NCBI RefSeq assembly: GCF_001921205.1
Contig: NZ_MSIE01000007.1
Span: 124,001-188,000, forward strand
Direction: 5' to 3'
Origin: Actinophytocola xanthii
Lineage (GTDB): Bacteria > Actinomycetota > Actinomycetes > Mycobacteriales > Pseudonocardiaceae
DNA length: 64,000 bases
The notes beneath the pieces are model-generated. The model ran no database searches. It was not told where the DNA came from and was given only the letters and a program-made list of their open reading frames with translations. The position numbers and the translations under genes are program-made. Shown here in pieces: positions 59,356 to 64,000 of the stretch. Numbering within the stretch: position 1 is the stretch's first letter; every line of letters starts with the position of its first letter.

Positions 59356-59403
59356 CAGCTCCCCGAGCCCTCGCTCCCTCAGGCCGACAATCGTCGTACT
59401 CCA

Positions 59404-59477
59404 GGGGATCGGTGTAAAGGGCGCCTTCGGCGTCGCTGACGCGAGCTCGCTTCGCTCGCCCCTTGACACCGATCCCC
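59404..59477. repeat. long hairpin 1 of the repeat block
   Basis: Arms GGGGATCGGTGTAAAGGGCG (59404-59423) and its near-complement (59457-59477) close a 33-base loop that itself contains the hairpin CGCCTTCGGCG (59422-59432) and the palindrome GCGAGCTCGC (59441-59450). May act as a terminator for the PaaX-type gene, 48 bases upstream. Confidence 0.7.
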
Positions 59478-59632
59478 CGGAGCCACGAACCGGCCTGTAT
59501 GAGGGAGCAGCGGGAAGGAGTAGGCAGCCTCCCTCAGAGCCGAGCCCTCGGCGCGCCGCTTCCCAGGCAACCCCACCGAACAAGGAAACCTCCCTACACT
59601 CCCCCCGGCTCCCTCGTATAGGCCGTCCCTAG

Positions 59633-59711
59633 CGCCACAGCGTCGGGGTCAAGAGTGGCGAAGCCATCGCGCAGCGACGCCGCAGGCGCTCTTGAAGCCG
59701 ACGATGTGGCG
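59633..59711. repeat. long hairpin 2 of the repeat block
   Basis: 23-base arms (59633-59655 and 59689-59711) with 20 matching positions, loop of 33 bases that contains further self-complementary GC-rich sequence. Located 26 bases after the end of the PLP-enzyme gene on the minus strand, so it may terminate that operon. Confidence 0.65.
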
Positions 59712-59736
59712 TTAGACCATTGTCGGCCGAGGGAGC

Positions 59737-60729
59737 TCAACCCGGCCCACCCGCCCTTCCCCAGCGCATACGTGACCACGGAAGCCGCAGCTCGTCCACA
59801 GTAGACACCTCGACCGGGGCCAGGCTCTCAACAGCCGGCGCCTCGCGAAAGCGGGCGAACACGCTCTCGACATAGCGGTGCCCCGTGTCGGCCGCGATGA
59901 ACACGGTGGTGCGGGCGGGGTCGTGTTCCCAGTGGGCGGTGAGGTAGGCGGCGCCGGTGGACAGGCCGGCGAAGACGGCGTGTTCGCGCAGCAGGGCGAT
60001 GCTGCCGGCGAGGGCGGCGGTGAAACCGACCCAGTGCAGGGTGTCGTAGAGGGTGTGGTCGACGTTGTCGAAGGGAATCGAGCTGCCGATGCCGGCGATG
60101 ATGATGTCCGGGTCGGACACGTGCTGGCTGCCGAACGTGACGCTGCCGAAGGGTTGTACCCCGACGAGCGCCACCTCGGGTAGGCGACCGCGCAGGTAGG
60201 TGGCGAGGGCACCGGTCGACGCACCGGAACCGACGCCGCCGACGAGGGTGAGCGGTCCGTCGCCGAGTTCGTCGGCGATCCGGTCGGCCACCGCCCGGTA
60301 GCCGAGGTAGTGGATGGCGTCGTGGTACTGGCGCATCCAGTGGTAGCCGGGGTTGTCGCGGAGGATCTCGTGGATGCGGGCGACGCGGCGGCTCTGGTCG
60401 AGCTTCAGGCTCACCGACGGGGCCATTTGTTCCAGGTGGGCACCGAGGACCGCGAGCTGGGCGCGCAGGGTGTCATCGACCGTGGTGGAGCCGACGATGT
60501 GGCAGCGCATGCCGTAGCGGTGACAGGCCAGCGCGAGCGCGTAGGCGTAGATGCCGCTGGAGGAGTCCAGCAGGGTGTCCCCTGGCCGCACCACGCCGGT
60601 CTCGAGCAGGTGCTCCACGGCGGCCAGCGCGGAGACGACCTTCATCGACTCAAACCGCAGGCAGACCAACCCGTCGTCGAGGCGGACGAGGTCCGGTCTG
60701 CTGATCGCGTCGGCGATGTGGCTGTCCAT
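59737..60729 (-). CDS. SbnA/CysK-like PLP-dependent enzyme of the putative metallophore cluster
   Basis: 330-residue fold-type II PLP enzyme of the cysteine-synthase group. Putative Schiff-base Lys30 in RFESMKVVSA; phosphate-binding VGGVGSGASTGALA (about 163-175). The usual substrate/cofactor loop SSGN reads SSSGIYAYALA, so the conserved Asn is replaced by Ile. SbnA-type relatives make 2,3-diaminopropionate precursors from O-phosphoserine; a beta-replacement on a phospho-hydroxyamino acid fits the adjacent kinase. ATG 60729 has GGAGGG 6 bases upstream. It overlaps the 3' end of the kinase gene by 80 bases. Confidence 0.8.
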   Translation of the reverse strand: MDSHIADAISRPDLVRLDDGLVCLRFESMKVVSALAAVEHLLETGVVRPGDTLLDSSSGIYAYALALACHRYGMRCHIVGSTTVDDTLRAQLAVLGAHLEQMAPSVSLKLDQSRRVARIHEILRDNPGYHWMRQYHDAIHYLGYRAVADRIADELGDGPLTLVGGVGSGASTGALATYLRGRLPEVALVGVQPFGSVTFGSQHVSDPDIIIAGIGSSIPFDNVDHTLYDTLHWVGFTAALAGSIALLREHAVFAGLSTGAAYLTAHWEHDPARTTVFIAADTGHRYVESVFARFREAPAVESLAPVEVSTVDELRLPWSRMRWGRAGGPG

Positions 60730-61633
60730 GTCCGCCCTCCGCTCGGCCGGTGGTGAAGATGCGTGTGACCGGGATGCCGTGCCGGTCAAGCGCCCGCCGG
60801 CAGTGCCACAGCCGCCGGTCCAGATCGGACGCGGGGTCGAACAGCAGTCCCGCGACGTTCCCGCTGTGCGCGACCTGCACGCCGGCCGACCCGGTCCGCC
60901 GGGCGACGGCCTCCAGCTCGGTTAGCTCCTCCTTGGGCAGCACCCGCTGGTTGCGCCGGGCGCTCTCGGTGCTGACCCGGCCGAGCAGGGCGAGGTCGGC
61001 GTCGGCGATCGCCCGGCGCAGCAACGCGCGGAGCCCCTCGAAACACCGCACGTCCTCCTCCCGGCACGGGCCACGAACCGTCAGCGTGTCCACCGGTCTG
61101 CCGCCCCCGGTCAGGCAGCCGACGACGACCACGGGCGGCAGCGCCGCGCCGAGGTCCTCCAGGACCCGGCCCTCCCGGTGGGCGAACAGCAGCGGACGGT
61201 CCTCGAGCATGAGAGGGTCGCTCGCGTGCTCGGCGCGGACCGCGAGGCGGGCGACGGCGGCGGGCGGCAGCTCGACGCCGAAGCTCGCCGCCACCGCGCG
61301 GATCGCGGCGATCACGTCGCCACTGGAGGAGCCCATGCCCAAGCCCAGCGGGATGTCGCTGTGCAGCCGCAGCCGCCCACCGCACCGCGGCCGGCCGCTG
61401 CGGCGCGCGCACTCGGCGGTCGCGAGCGAGGCCGCGCGGGCGGCCTTCACCCGGTCCGCCGGGCGCACGACCACCACCCCGGTGCCGGGTGTCGGTGCGA
61501 ACTCGGCGCGGACGCCGGGCCCGCCCATCGGCAGCGTCACCAGCCCCCGGCACGGCCGACCGGAGGCGTCGACGAAGACACCCTGGAGGAGCTCACCGTG
61601 GTGGACGGCGGAGTGCCCGGTGCCGACGATCAT
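60650..61633 (-). CDS. GHMP-family kinase, L-threonine kinase (PduX)-like
   Basis: 327 residues. GTGHSAVHHGELLQG at the N-terminus and the ATP-binding GHMP motif PLGLGMGSSSGD (about 95-106) resemble PduX-type threonine kinases; the C-terminal GHMP motif lies near VQVAHSGNVAGLLFD. It would phosphorylate a hydroxy-amino acid such as threonine or serine. ATG overlaps the stop of the DUF364 gene (ATGA). The last 26 or so residues (after TTGRAEGG) are encoded in the overlap with the PLP gene, out of frame, and look unlike protein, so the natural C-terminus may have been extended by a late frameshift. Confidence 0.8.
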   Translation of the reverse strand: MIVGTGHSAVHHGELLQGVFVDASGRPCRGLVTLPMGGPGVRAEFAPTPGTGVVVVRPADRVKAARAASLATAECARRSGRPRCGGRLRLHSDIPLGLGMGSSSGDVIAAIRAVAASFGVELPPAAVARLAVRAEHASDPLMLEDRPLLFAHREGRVLEDLGAALPPVVVVGCLTGGGRPVDTLTVRGPCREEDVRCFEGLRALLRRAIADADLALLGRVSTESARRNQRVLPKEELTELEAVARRTGSAGVQVAHSGNVAGLLFDPASDLDRRLWHCRRALDRHGIPVTRIFTTGRAEGGHGQPHRRRDQQTGPRPPRRRVGLPAV

Positions 61634-62436
61634 GCCGGCGTCGCCTGGCGGTAGTGGTAGAGCGTGGTCACATCCGCGCTGAACTGGGAGAACGGGAAGG
61701 GCTCTGCCGACACCGCGGTCACCCCGGCACCGAGGAACGCCCGCGCGACCGCGCTCCCGCTCTGCGCGTAGACGACCAGCGGCACGGCTCGCTCCCGGCA
61801 GCGGCGGACAATCTCGTCGAACGTGCCGTTTCCCAGCGTCATCCCGGTCGCGACGACCGCGTCGGCGTCCTCGAGCACCTCGCTCATCTCCGAGGTCACG
61901 GTGTCCCCCCACTGGGTCGCGGGCAGGTTGAGGTCGCACGGGAGGCAGACCCCTCCCCGCTCGCGAATGGCGGCCACGAGGGGGTTCACCACCCCGATGA
62001 GCGCGACCCGCGCACCCGTCGCGATGTCCAGCAGGCCGGTGATCGCGGCGTCGCGGGCACGAGCCCGCACCTCCGGCGTGCCCGCGGGCAGGGACACCGG
62101 CTCCGCGTCCGGCGCCTCCCGGTGTGGACGAACGGTGGCGAGATAGGCGTCCAGTGCGGCGATTCGCAGCGGTAGCGGGCCGTCCCGCAGCAGGTCGCCG
62201 ACGGACCGGCCGGACGCCTCGAGGCAGATCGACGGGTCCACCTCATCGGCCTCGAACGCGCAGGCGCCGAACGACCGCCCACATCGGACCAGAAGGTACT
62301 GGTTGCGGTAGGTGGTGTTCCCGCCGGCCAGGCGCGTTCCGTGATGGAGCCAGAAAACGCTCGTCGCGTCCATCGTGGACGGACGGGGGCCATGTTCTCC
62401 GGCGAGGACGCCGGCGATGAGCTGTTCGACGTTCAC
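61630..62436 (-). CDS. DUF4213/DUF364 putative heavy-metal-chelation protein
   Basis: 268 residues. N-terminal enolase-like DUF4213 part (about 1-100: SVFWLHHGTRLAGGNTTYRNQYLLV) and C-terminal Rossmann-like DUF364 part (about 115-265: ALIGVVNPLVAAIRERG, ADAVVATGMTLGNGTFDEIVR, VYAQSGSAVARAFLGAGV; short forms). The family is annotated as putative heavy-metal chelation on structural grounds; the biochemical role is not established. GTG at 62436 is the chosen start. It is the first gene of the minus-strand metallophore operon and divergent from the exporter. Confidence 0.82.
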   Translation of the reverse strand: MNVEQLIAGVLAGEHGPRPSTMDATSVFWLHHGTRLAGGNTTYRNQYLLVRCGRSFGACAFEADEVDPSICLEASGRSVGDLLRDGPLPLRIAALDAYLATVRPHREAPDAEPVSLPAGTPEVRARARDAAITGLLDIATGARVALIGVVNPLVAAIRERGGVCLPCDLNLPATQWGDTVTSEMSEVLEDADAVVATGMTLGNGTFDEIVRRCRERAVPLVVYAQSGSAVARAFLGAGVTAVSAEPFPFSQFSADVTTLYHYRQATPA

Positions 62437-62507
62437 CCGGCGCCACCGCGCCGGAACCGGAAGGGGCCACAGGCCGGTGCATCCATGCTCACGGTCGGCT
62501 ATGTTAC

Positions 62508-62522
62508 AAATGATAACCATTT
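62508..62522. promoter_or_regulatory. Fur/Zur-like box
   Basis: AAATGATAACCATTT is an inverted repeat (AAATG / CATTT, 5-base centre) in the divergent promoter between the DUF364 gene and the MFS gene. AT-rich TGATAA..ATT sequence in such GC-rich DNA is typical of Fur-superfamily operators; it matches about 10 of 15 positions of the actinobacterial Zur box TGAAAATGATTTTCA as I recall it. Confidence 0.55.
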
Positions 62523-62547
62523 CCGTCTAGACCGAGGAGGCCAGAGG

Positions 62548-63807
62548 GTGACTTCGTCGTCGGCCGGGATCGCGGGGAGGAGAGCCCGGCGCTCGGCGCC
62601 GCTCGGGGCGCGGTTCGCCCGGCTCTGGCTTGGCACGACGGCGTCGGGCCTGGCGACGTGGGCGCTGCCGTTCGTGCTGGGGCTGGGGGTGCTGACCCGC
62701 GAGCTGAGCGCGGCCGGCCTCGGCGTGGTGCTCGCCGCGCGCACGGCGGGGTTCCTGCTGGCCGTTCCGGTCAGCGGGGTGCTCGCCGACCGCCGCTCAC
62801 GCCGCCAGGTGGTGTTGTGGGCGGGGCTGGCCGCCGCGGTCGGCTCGCCCGTGCTGGCGCTGGGGCTCGGACGCTCGGTCGCGTTGATGGCGGCCGCGGC
62901 GGTGGTGGTCGGTGCGGGGCAGGGTGCGTGCCGACCCGCGTTCCAGGCACTCGTCGCCGAGATCGTCGAGCCGGAGCGCAGGCAGGCGGCCAACGCGGCG
63001 ATCGCGTTGTCGGTCCGGGTCGTCACGCTCACCGCCCCGGCACTGACGGCCCTGTTGGCCGCCGTGCTCAGCACCACCGCGCTGCTGGTCGGGACCGGCC
63101 TGGTCTGGCTGTGCGCCGCGCTCGTGCCGCCGGCCGGGCGACACGGGGTGGACACCGCCGCCCCGCGGGCCTCGTTCACGCGCGAGTTCGGCGAGGGCGT
63201 GCGGGAGGCGAGGCGCCACCCCTGGTTCCTCGCCGGCCTGGGCGCGCTCACCACGGTGATCGCCACCGGGTACTCCGCATCCAGCGTGGTCCTGCCGCTG
63301 GTCAGCCGGGACCGCTACGGCACCGAGGCGGTACTCGCAGCGGCGTTGACCGCGTACACGGTGGGCGGTCTGCTCGGGGCGCTCGTCCTCACCCGGTGGC
63401 GGCCCCGCGTCCAGGGCTGGACCGCCCTGGGGGCCCTTGCCTGCCACGGCTTCGTACCGCTCGCGCTGCTGCTGCCCGTGCACTGGACGGTGGTCGTGGC
63501 CGCCTACGTCGTCGCCGGGCTGGGGATCGAGCTGTTCAACGTGCCCTGGTTCACCGCGACCCAGCGCGAGGTCGCGCCGGACAAGCTCGCTCGAGTGTCC
63601 TCGTTGGACTTCTTGCTCTCCTACGGGCTCGCACCGGTGGGACTGGCGCTCATCGTGCCGGCCATCGACGCGTTCGGGGAGTACGCCGTGCTCGGCACCT
63701 GCGCGGTCGTGTGCTTCCTCGCTCCGGTCGCCGCGATGGCGGTCCCCACGACCCGCGGCTTCACCAGGCCGACGACCTCCGTTCCTTTCCCAGGGAGGAA
63801 GAGATGA
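62548..63807 (+). CDS. MFS transporter, probable metallophore exporter
   Basis: 419 residues with 11-12 predicted membrane helices. RFARLWLGTTASGLATWALPF at the start, the MFS motif ADRRSRRQVV between helices 2 and 3, and the DHA3 layout shared with EntS-type siderophore exporters. GTG 62548 preceded by GAGGAGG. Its stop overlaps the ATG of the binding-protein gene, so export and uptake genes are co-translated. Export of the cluster product is inference from location. Confidence 0.87.
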   Translation: MTSSSAGIAGRRARRSAPLGARFARLWLGTTASGLATWALPFVLGLGVLTRELSAAGLGVVLAARTAGFLLAVPVSGVLADRRSRRQVVLWAGLAAAVGSPVLALGLGRSVALMAAAAVVVGAGQGACRPAFQALVAEIVEPERRQAANAAIALSVRVVTLTAPALTALLAAVLSTTALLVGTGLVWLCAALVPPAGRHGVDTAAPRASFTREFGEGVREARRHPWFLAGLGALTTVIATGYSASSVVLPLVSRDRYGTEAVLAAALTAYTVGGLLGALVLTRWRPRVQGWTALGALACHGFVPLALLLPVHWTVVVAAYVVAGLGIELFNVPWFTATQREVAPDKLARVSSLDFLLSYGLAPVGLALIVPAIDAFGEYAVLGTCAVVCFLAPVAAMAVPTTRGFTRPTTSVPFPGRKR

Positions 63808-64000
63808 CACGATGTGGCAGAAGCGGCTGGACGGCCGCACTCGGTTCGGTGCTCACCGCCGCCGCCGTCGGGCTGTCCGGCTGTGCCGACCCCCCAGCCG
63901 ACCCCGCGGCCGATCCCGCGCGCTCAGCGCCGGCGAGCACCGTGCGGAGCTGCGGTCAGGAGCTGTCGTTCACCGAACCGCCCGAGCGCGTGGTGACGCT
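63804..64000 (+). CDS. FecB/FepB-type metal-siderophore binding lipoprotein, 3' end outside window
   Basis: First 65 codons only. Signal segment LGSVLTAAAVGLSGC (lipobox LSGC), a proline/alanine-rich linker, then CGQELSFTEPPERVVTL, the conserved beginning of TroA/FecB-fold siderophore-binding proteins. ATG has GGGAGGAAG upstream. Permease and ATPase genes may follow beyond the window. Confidence 0.85.
   Translation, partial: MTRCGRSGWTAALGSVLTAAAVGLSGCADPPADPAADPARSAPASTVRSCGQELSFTEPPERVVT

Follow-up and report, generated by a model that had tools for sequence, protein, structure and literature searches.

A predicted Zur-controlled zincophore cassette with a DUF364 protein in Actinophytocola xanthii

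A 64,000-nucleotide stretch of the Actinophytocola xanthii genome (contig NZ_MSIE01000007.1, positions 124,001 to 188,000; hereafter the window) ends in two divergent operons, a leftward one encoding a DUF364 protein, a GHMP-superfamily kinase and a pyridoxal phosphate (PLP)-dependent enzyme, and a rightward one encoding a major facilitator superfamily (MFS) exporter and a FecB-type lipoprotein. Including FecCD and FecE past the window edge, the cassette has seven genes in total. It is likely to be a self-contained, Zur-controlled zincophore system without a non-ribosomal peptide synthetase (NRPS) or an NRPS-independent siderophore (NIS) synthetase, in which the DUF364 protein would be an uncharacterised second enzyme. 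That it encodes a Zur-controlled metallophore is, on present evidence, highly probable. The sequences give directly the genes, their coupling and conservation, a Zur-type operator and the covariation of one active-site residue with the kinase.

The leftward operon opens with the DUF364 gene (Table 1). The DUF364 and kinase genes overlap by 4 bp, as do those for the MFS protein and FecB, while the kinase and PLP genes overlap by 80 bp. All five of the coupled genes claimed by the initial annotation are present, as overlapping genes that are kept across genera. The FecB-type receptor that it named is also there, with 197 bases inside the window and the complete gene in the genome, ending at contig position 188835, but the picture was incomplete. 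As the genome adds FecCD and FecE to FecB past the window edge, the importer is complete, and it is this full set that makes up the real transporter. The exporter and importer genes adjoin the biosynthetic genes. The MFS protein matches an H+ antiporter subfamily in NCBIfam and, more weakly and below cut-off, the enterobactin exporter EntS. As had been claimed, no NRPS or NIS (IucA/IucC) synthetase was found among the cassette proteins scanned with Pfam and NCBIfam, nor did Pfam match any of them to the nicotianamine-synthase-like protein and opine dehydrogenase of a staphylopine-like opine metallophore.

Table 1. Features of the cassette, in window positions unless marked as contig positions
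Feature	Position	Strand or place	Remarks
PLP-dependent beta-substitution enzyme (fold type II, SbnA/CysK superfamily)	59737..60729	-	ATG start at 60729; PALP E 5e-33
GHMP-superfamily small-molecule kinase	60650..61633	-	GHMP_kinases_N E 4e-13
DUF364 protein, two-domain (enolase-N-like + Rossmann-like)	61630..62436	-	GTG start at 62436; PF04016 E 9e-13
Zur-type operator between divergent operons	62507..62529	.	matrix score 29.5
MFS exporter, predicted	62548..63807	+	GTG start at 62548; MFS_1 E 9e-32
FecB-type substrate-binding lipoprotein	63804..64000 (window edge)	+	ATG start at 63804; Peripla_BP_2 E 2e-31
FecCD	contig 188825-189907 (G000:C172), beyond window	after FecB	FecCD E 2e-84
ATPase FecE	contig 189904-190680 (G000:C172), beyond window	after FecCD	ABC ATPase

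Conservation was followed in a main set of 112 loci (103 distinct DUF364 sequences), made up of the window genome, 3 plasmids, 28 family genomes and 80 named ones; a scan of 84,980 species had given 317 confirmed DUF364 relatives, of which the best 80, mostly from Streptomyces, were kept. Of 297 family genomes 136 contain a relative of DUF364 (E <= 1e-3), and these relatives fall into two identity groups, 63-80% and 35-47%. Among named relatives Actinophytocola algeriensis is nearest (DUF364 79-80%, PLP enzyme 85-87%), and the cassette is also found in Streptomyces, Amycolatopsis, Tsukamurella and others. Within the main set the PLP gene was seen in 108 loci, the kinase in 96, the MFS gene in 87, the substrate-binding protein in 98, FecCD in 100 and FecE in 106. 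In all 108 the PLP gene adjoins DUF364, and in the remaining four the contig breaks off on the side where the PLP gene would lie. That different genera retain the gene set shows that the cassette goes far beyond a fortuitous grouping; since gene order and orientation differ between loci and two importer types (A or B) swap, its retention does not reflect simple lineage inheritance of one arrangement. The co-occurrence of DUF364, PLP enzyme and kinase, which the initial annotation had proposed as a check, is thus conserved well beyond one strain. The metallophore that it proposed fits this conservation, the predicted Zur control and the want of an unrelated pathway with these genes in the literature searched, but no kinase was seen in 16 of the 112 loci, so that this gene is not universal. 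A further point against is that no MFS gene was found in 25 of the 112, partly through cut contigs. A small-domain methyltransferase gene (e.g. L040:9246-9998) accompanies 51 of the 112 cassettes, in 48 of which it lies no more than 2 kb from DUF364. Importer type and methyltransferase were associated as correlates but with many exceptions, and were dropped.

The upstream regions of the cassettes contain the palindrome nTAATGAAAATnATTTTCATTAn (58 distinct sites, selected for a fit to a Zur core with up to 3 mismatches, which shuffled regions seldom reach). Its matrix agrees with the 21-bp Zur motif reported from znuA in 17 actinobacteria, taaTGaNAANNNTTNtCANta (PMC5472717; for this and the other papers cited by such numbers, our statements refer to the portions of text that were available). 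The best non-overlapping site elsewhere in the 64 kb scores 8.9, and shuffling the intergenic stretch 2000 times never reached the score of the site between the operons. This site scores 27.6 under a matrix built from Streptomycetaceae loci only (33 sites). With a best score above 18 as threshold, that matrix found a site in 28/30 Pseudonocardiaceae cassettes (shuffles 0/150), the one Tsukamurella cassette (1/1; shuffles 0/5), 20/30 ZnuA loci (shuffles 0/150) and 7/7 sister loci with an ATP-grasp gene (shuffles 1/35), where the site of L044 is away from the operon start. It found none in 19 type-ii loci, which have a PLP enzyme of the same subfamily and no DUF364 (shuffles 0/95), none in 7 minimal sister loci (shuffles 0/35) and none in 12 SbnB loci, these being short stretches (shuffles 0/60). 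Zinc is the most likely metal on this evidence, as the Zur-type box is present at the cassettes and at ZnuA loci and absent from the PLP-subfamily loci without DUF364. The metal had been left unspecified, which we would correct to zinc, and the metal-dependent control on which the earlier proposal was staked is predicted from the box shared with znuA promoters.

Some details sit less well with zinc control. Sites were scored anywhere within a locus and not restricted to promoters, two of the 30 Pseudonocardiaceae cassettes fall under the threshold (L064 at 11.6, L069 at 17.8), and only one of the two ZnuA genes of the A. xanthii genome has a site (21.8). A search of this genome for a Zur regulon with the strict motif at 3 mismatches gave 0 matches; relaxing the pattern gave 15 places, most of them of little use, and ZnuA promoters were used in its place. 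It would seem unlikely that the product is a siderophore or a chelator of another metal: FecB/FecCD importers commonly carry siderophores, and both EDHA and staphyloferrin B are iron siderophores, but upstream of the main genes a Zur-type box is found instead of any IdeR-type box over shuffled background. IdeR/DmdR and Nur boxes were no more frequent in upstream regions than in shuffled sequence, barring two FecE regions with an IdeR-type box (L051 and L135, one organism) next to a separate importer.

The best NCBIfam match of the PLP enzyme is the SbnA model TIGR03945, with a score of 125 bits, far under the cut-off of 350. Selection of phosphoserine by SbnA depends on Arg132, Tyr152 and Ser185, the first two of which bind the phosphate (PMC12414870). 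In a profile alignment to SbnA (5d84-5d87) these correspond to R115, Y135 and G167, which with K30 are invariant in 141/141 aligned sequences, the Arg and Tyr being kept and Ser185 replaced by Gly throughout. Directly after G167 lies Ser168, which corresponds to SbnA Thr186 and, we presume, to Thr177 of CysK.

This active-site-loop residue follows the kinase, being Ser in 98/98 loci where a GHMP kinase is present and Thr in 29/29 where none is visible (127 rows, 118 distinct PLP sequences, 90 with Ser and 28 with Thr). The second group includes L129, where the contig ends ~70 bp upstream of the PLP gene, the usual place of the kinase, leaving 28 firm. The count leaves out L110, L141, L145 and L150, in which the PLP gene runs past the contig end, and L142, in which the loop is missing; there the PLP gene matches as two pieces without its middle (L142:6143-6859). 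Across the 263 positions scanned, residue 168 is the sole error-free column and the runner-up has 6 errors; the window row (L009) ends at 263 residues, so later columns lay outside the scan. The kinase changes 6 times on a tree built without column 168, and of 4000 neutral characters simulated at each of five rates, none came within 2 of the match of this residue. A genome-wide search found no kinase in 8/8 of the kinase-less cassette genomes tested. Judged from these alignments, the link may reflect the use of phosphothreonine versus phosphoserine, as the change of Thr to Ser in the loop loses one methyl group, which would fit the extra methyl of phosphothreonine. As the kinase-less enzymes keep the phosphate-binding pair like the others, they plausibly take their phosphoserine from central metabolism, and the kinase, for the same reason, plausibly supplies something that central metabolism lacks.

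The kinase scores 49.8 bits against GHMP_kinases_N (gathering threshold 22.3) and conserves the motifs HHGELLQG and GLGMGSS. Its predicted fold is that of a GHMP kinase, the nearest solved structure being homoserine kinase 4p52 (TM-score 0.62); the fold search did not resolve the substrate, and the NCBIfam scan gave no PduX match. The L-threonine kinase PduX presumably shares with it the GHMP superfamily and a GELxQG-like N-terminus. PduX makes phosphothreonine (PMC12631008). On balance threonine is slightly favoured as the substrate of the cassette kinase. The main alternative, drawn by analogy with SbnI, is that the kinase makes O-phosphoserine and uncouples the pathway from central metabolism, with the Ser/Thr change in the loop only tuning affinity. 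The cluster-encoded SbnI phosphorylates serine and is described as duplicating what the phosphoserine pathway provides (PMC12414870), such redundancy would allow the 16 loci without a kinase, and the GHMP fold names no substrate; a redundant supply of the same substrate, however, predicts no strict and repeated covariation with one loop residue, and we consider this alternative possible but doubtful. Other observations count against the phosphothreonine interpretation. Branch supports in the tree are low (0.34-0.73), and the rule holds less strictly beyond the subfamily, where kinase-paired enzymes have Ser in 3/4 and Thr in 1/4, with L246 (kinase, Thr) and L084 (a sister enzyme, no kinase, Ser) as exceptions. 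Homologues of the kinase lie elsewhere in 3/7 type-ii genomes, one of them beside its own DUF364 gene, and the nearest solved fold, homoserine kinase, is only 14% identical.

The DUF364 protein matches PF04016 with 48.6 bits against a gathering threshold of 23, and its predicted model (pLDDT 93.9) aligns over the whole two-domain fold of 3l5o (TM-score 0.61, rmsd 5.8), which with 3npg, also DUF364, gave the top Foldseek matches. The DUF4213 model of the earlier label had no match at E <= 1e-3, but the structural alignment takes in both domains of the solved protein. Foldseek gave no close structural match to an enzyme of known function; after the protein's own family, fold-type-I PLP enzymes appeared only at a TM-score of 0.4 or less and were set aside as uninformative about mechanism. 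DUF364 is the constant partner of the PLP gene, in 108 main and 14/14 distant sister loci. As type-ii loci have an ATP-grasp gene after the PLP gene where DUF364 is missing, DUF364 falls in the slot of a second step, and we think it fairly probable that it performs this step in synthesis. The paper describing a DUF364 structure suggested that the protein condenses or hydrolyses a small molecule related to metals (PMC2954201). Should the protein instead handle the imported metal complex, by metal release or chelate breakdown, its association with metal transporters would be explained, condensation or hydrolysis being merely suggested (PMC2954201), as would its position directly after FecE in many loci. 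This seems rather unlikely, as DUF364 adjoins the PLP gene in the main and sister loci even where the importer is of another kind, and type-ii loci have FecBCD-type importers but no DUF364. Two points tell against a biosynthetic role: elsewhere DUF364 adjoins metal transporters without this PLP gene (PMC2954201), and no DUF364 residue tracks the kinase cleanly, the best column having 10 errors in 112, which gives no support for DUF364 sensing a kinase-derived group.

From these genes we infer each chemical step, and likewise the metal, the product and the DUF364 reaction. When zinc is scarce Zur would leave the operator at 62507-62529 and both operons would be expressed. The kinase would phosphorylate a hydroxy-amino acid, most likely L-threonine, and the PLP enzyme would remove the phosphate by elimination and couple an amine to the beta carbon as nucleophile. 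The resulting N-substituted 2,3-diamino acid would be of the 2,3-diaminobutyrate type with the kinase and of the 2,3-diaminopropionate type in kinase-less relatives drawing on phosphoserine. A second condensation or cyclisation by DUF364 would complete the chelator, which in some clusters would be decorated by the methyltransferase. It would then leave through the MFS protein, and its zinc complex would return through FecB-FecCD-FecE. Tentatively, this could be a new chemical class of zincophore, in which phosphothreonine is turned by the PLP enzyme into an N-substituted 2,3-diaminobutyrate that DUF364 joins or cyclises, while kinase-less sisters make the demethyl serine version and clusters of this PLP subfamily with ATP-grasp in place of DUF364 make a different, non-zinc product. 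If so, one active-site residue would mark a built-in chemical switch between the threonine and serine versions, and the kinase/Ser168 rule would make the donor amino acid predictable from sequence. A Zur-controlled amino-acid derivative of another role, for example an antimetabolite, is suggested by the occurrence of the kinase and CysK-like pair within an NRPS cluster too and on plasmids of rhizobia and Azospirillum; it is very improbable here, where an exporter, a metal-complex-type importer and a Zur box occur all together.

Comparison with known systems gives partial likenesses. The EDDS (ethylenediaminedisuccinate) cluster of Amycolatopsis japonicum is Zur-controlled (PMC6103462) and directs an NRPS-free zinc chelator. 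Judged by the presumed gene content of that cluster, the cassette differs in having no SbnB homologue and in having DUF364 and the GHMP kinase. The PLP beta-substitution chemistry of the [S,S]-EDDS cluster is presumably like that predicted for the cassette. SbnB-like genes, reported absent by the initial annotation, were found in 0/126 loci and 0/20 further loci (8/11 query translations being in the SbnB frame); two genomes have SbnB, but 14-24 kb away from DUF364. With SbnA, SbnB and SbnI the cassette shares a PLP enzyme acting, as predicted, on a phosphorylated hydroxy-amino acid, the phosphate-binding Arg and Tyr, and a cluster-encoded kinase, SbnI being, we assume, a kinase of another superfamily. 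Unlike the staphyloferrin B pathway it has neither SbnB nor a NIS synthetase, and Gly in place of SbnA Ser185. The EDHA cluster of Streptomyces scabiei (scab_5231-5311) directs an aminopolycarboxylate metallophore of a related actinomycete, but one described as a siderophore (PMC8914351), and it is set beside the cassette by description only. Dhaf4260 (3l5o) has the two-domain DUF364 fold and a suggested metal-transport neighbourhood, but is 13-14% identical, and the available portion of the paper does not mention PLP and kinase partners (PMC2954201).

Among openly licensed PubMed Central papers we found none on DUF364 with a metallophore and none on DUF4213; for DUF364 alone only the structure paper was relevant by its listing, and among the matches listed there was none on a GHMP kinase in this context and, by title, none on this cassette in the Streptomyces zincophore literature. 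Nothing useful was found on diaminobutyrate routes, and no known unrelated pathway with the same genes, an outcome the initial annotation had named as telling against it, turned up. Neither the product nor the second step of this enzyme combination was found described there. DUF364 is widespread and without a known reaction, and the cassette identifies partners and a regulator for it and points to a class of product that can be tested. If the zincophore reading is true, many streptomycetes would have an NRPS-free zinc-scavenging route that synthetase-based genome mining would pass over.

The type-ii clusters (L213-L231) have PLP enzymes 57-65% identical to that of the cassette, ATP-grasp genes in 17/19 by an ATP-grasp probe, and mostly FecBCD importers; they lack both DUF364 and a Zur box. 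In four of them a distant GHMP kinase goes together with Ser as the loop residue. The sister clusters (L043-L045, L074-L084) combine distant DUF364 and PLP genes with an MFS gene and an Opp-type importer; 7 of the 14 also have genes for ATP-grasp, dipeptide-epimerase-like and methyltransferase proteins, together with a Zur-type site, and the other 7 have neither. Pairs of a kinase and a CysK-like enzyme (L245, L246, L248, L249) lie on plasmids of Azospirillum, Mesorhizobium, Streptomyces and Paraburkholderia, two of them with ATP-grasp and argininosuccinate-lyase genes reminiscent of 2,3-diaminobutyrate pathways, and L249 has a box-like site (26.6) directly before its PLP gene. In the window, a repeat element with inverted arms (59369-59736) lies 3' of the PLP gene and has dozens of matches elsewhere in the genome.

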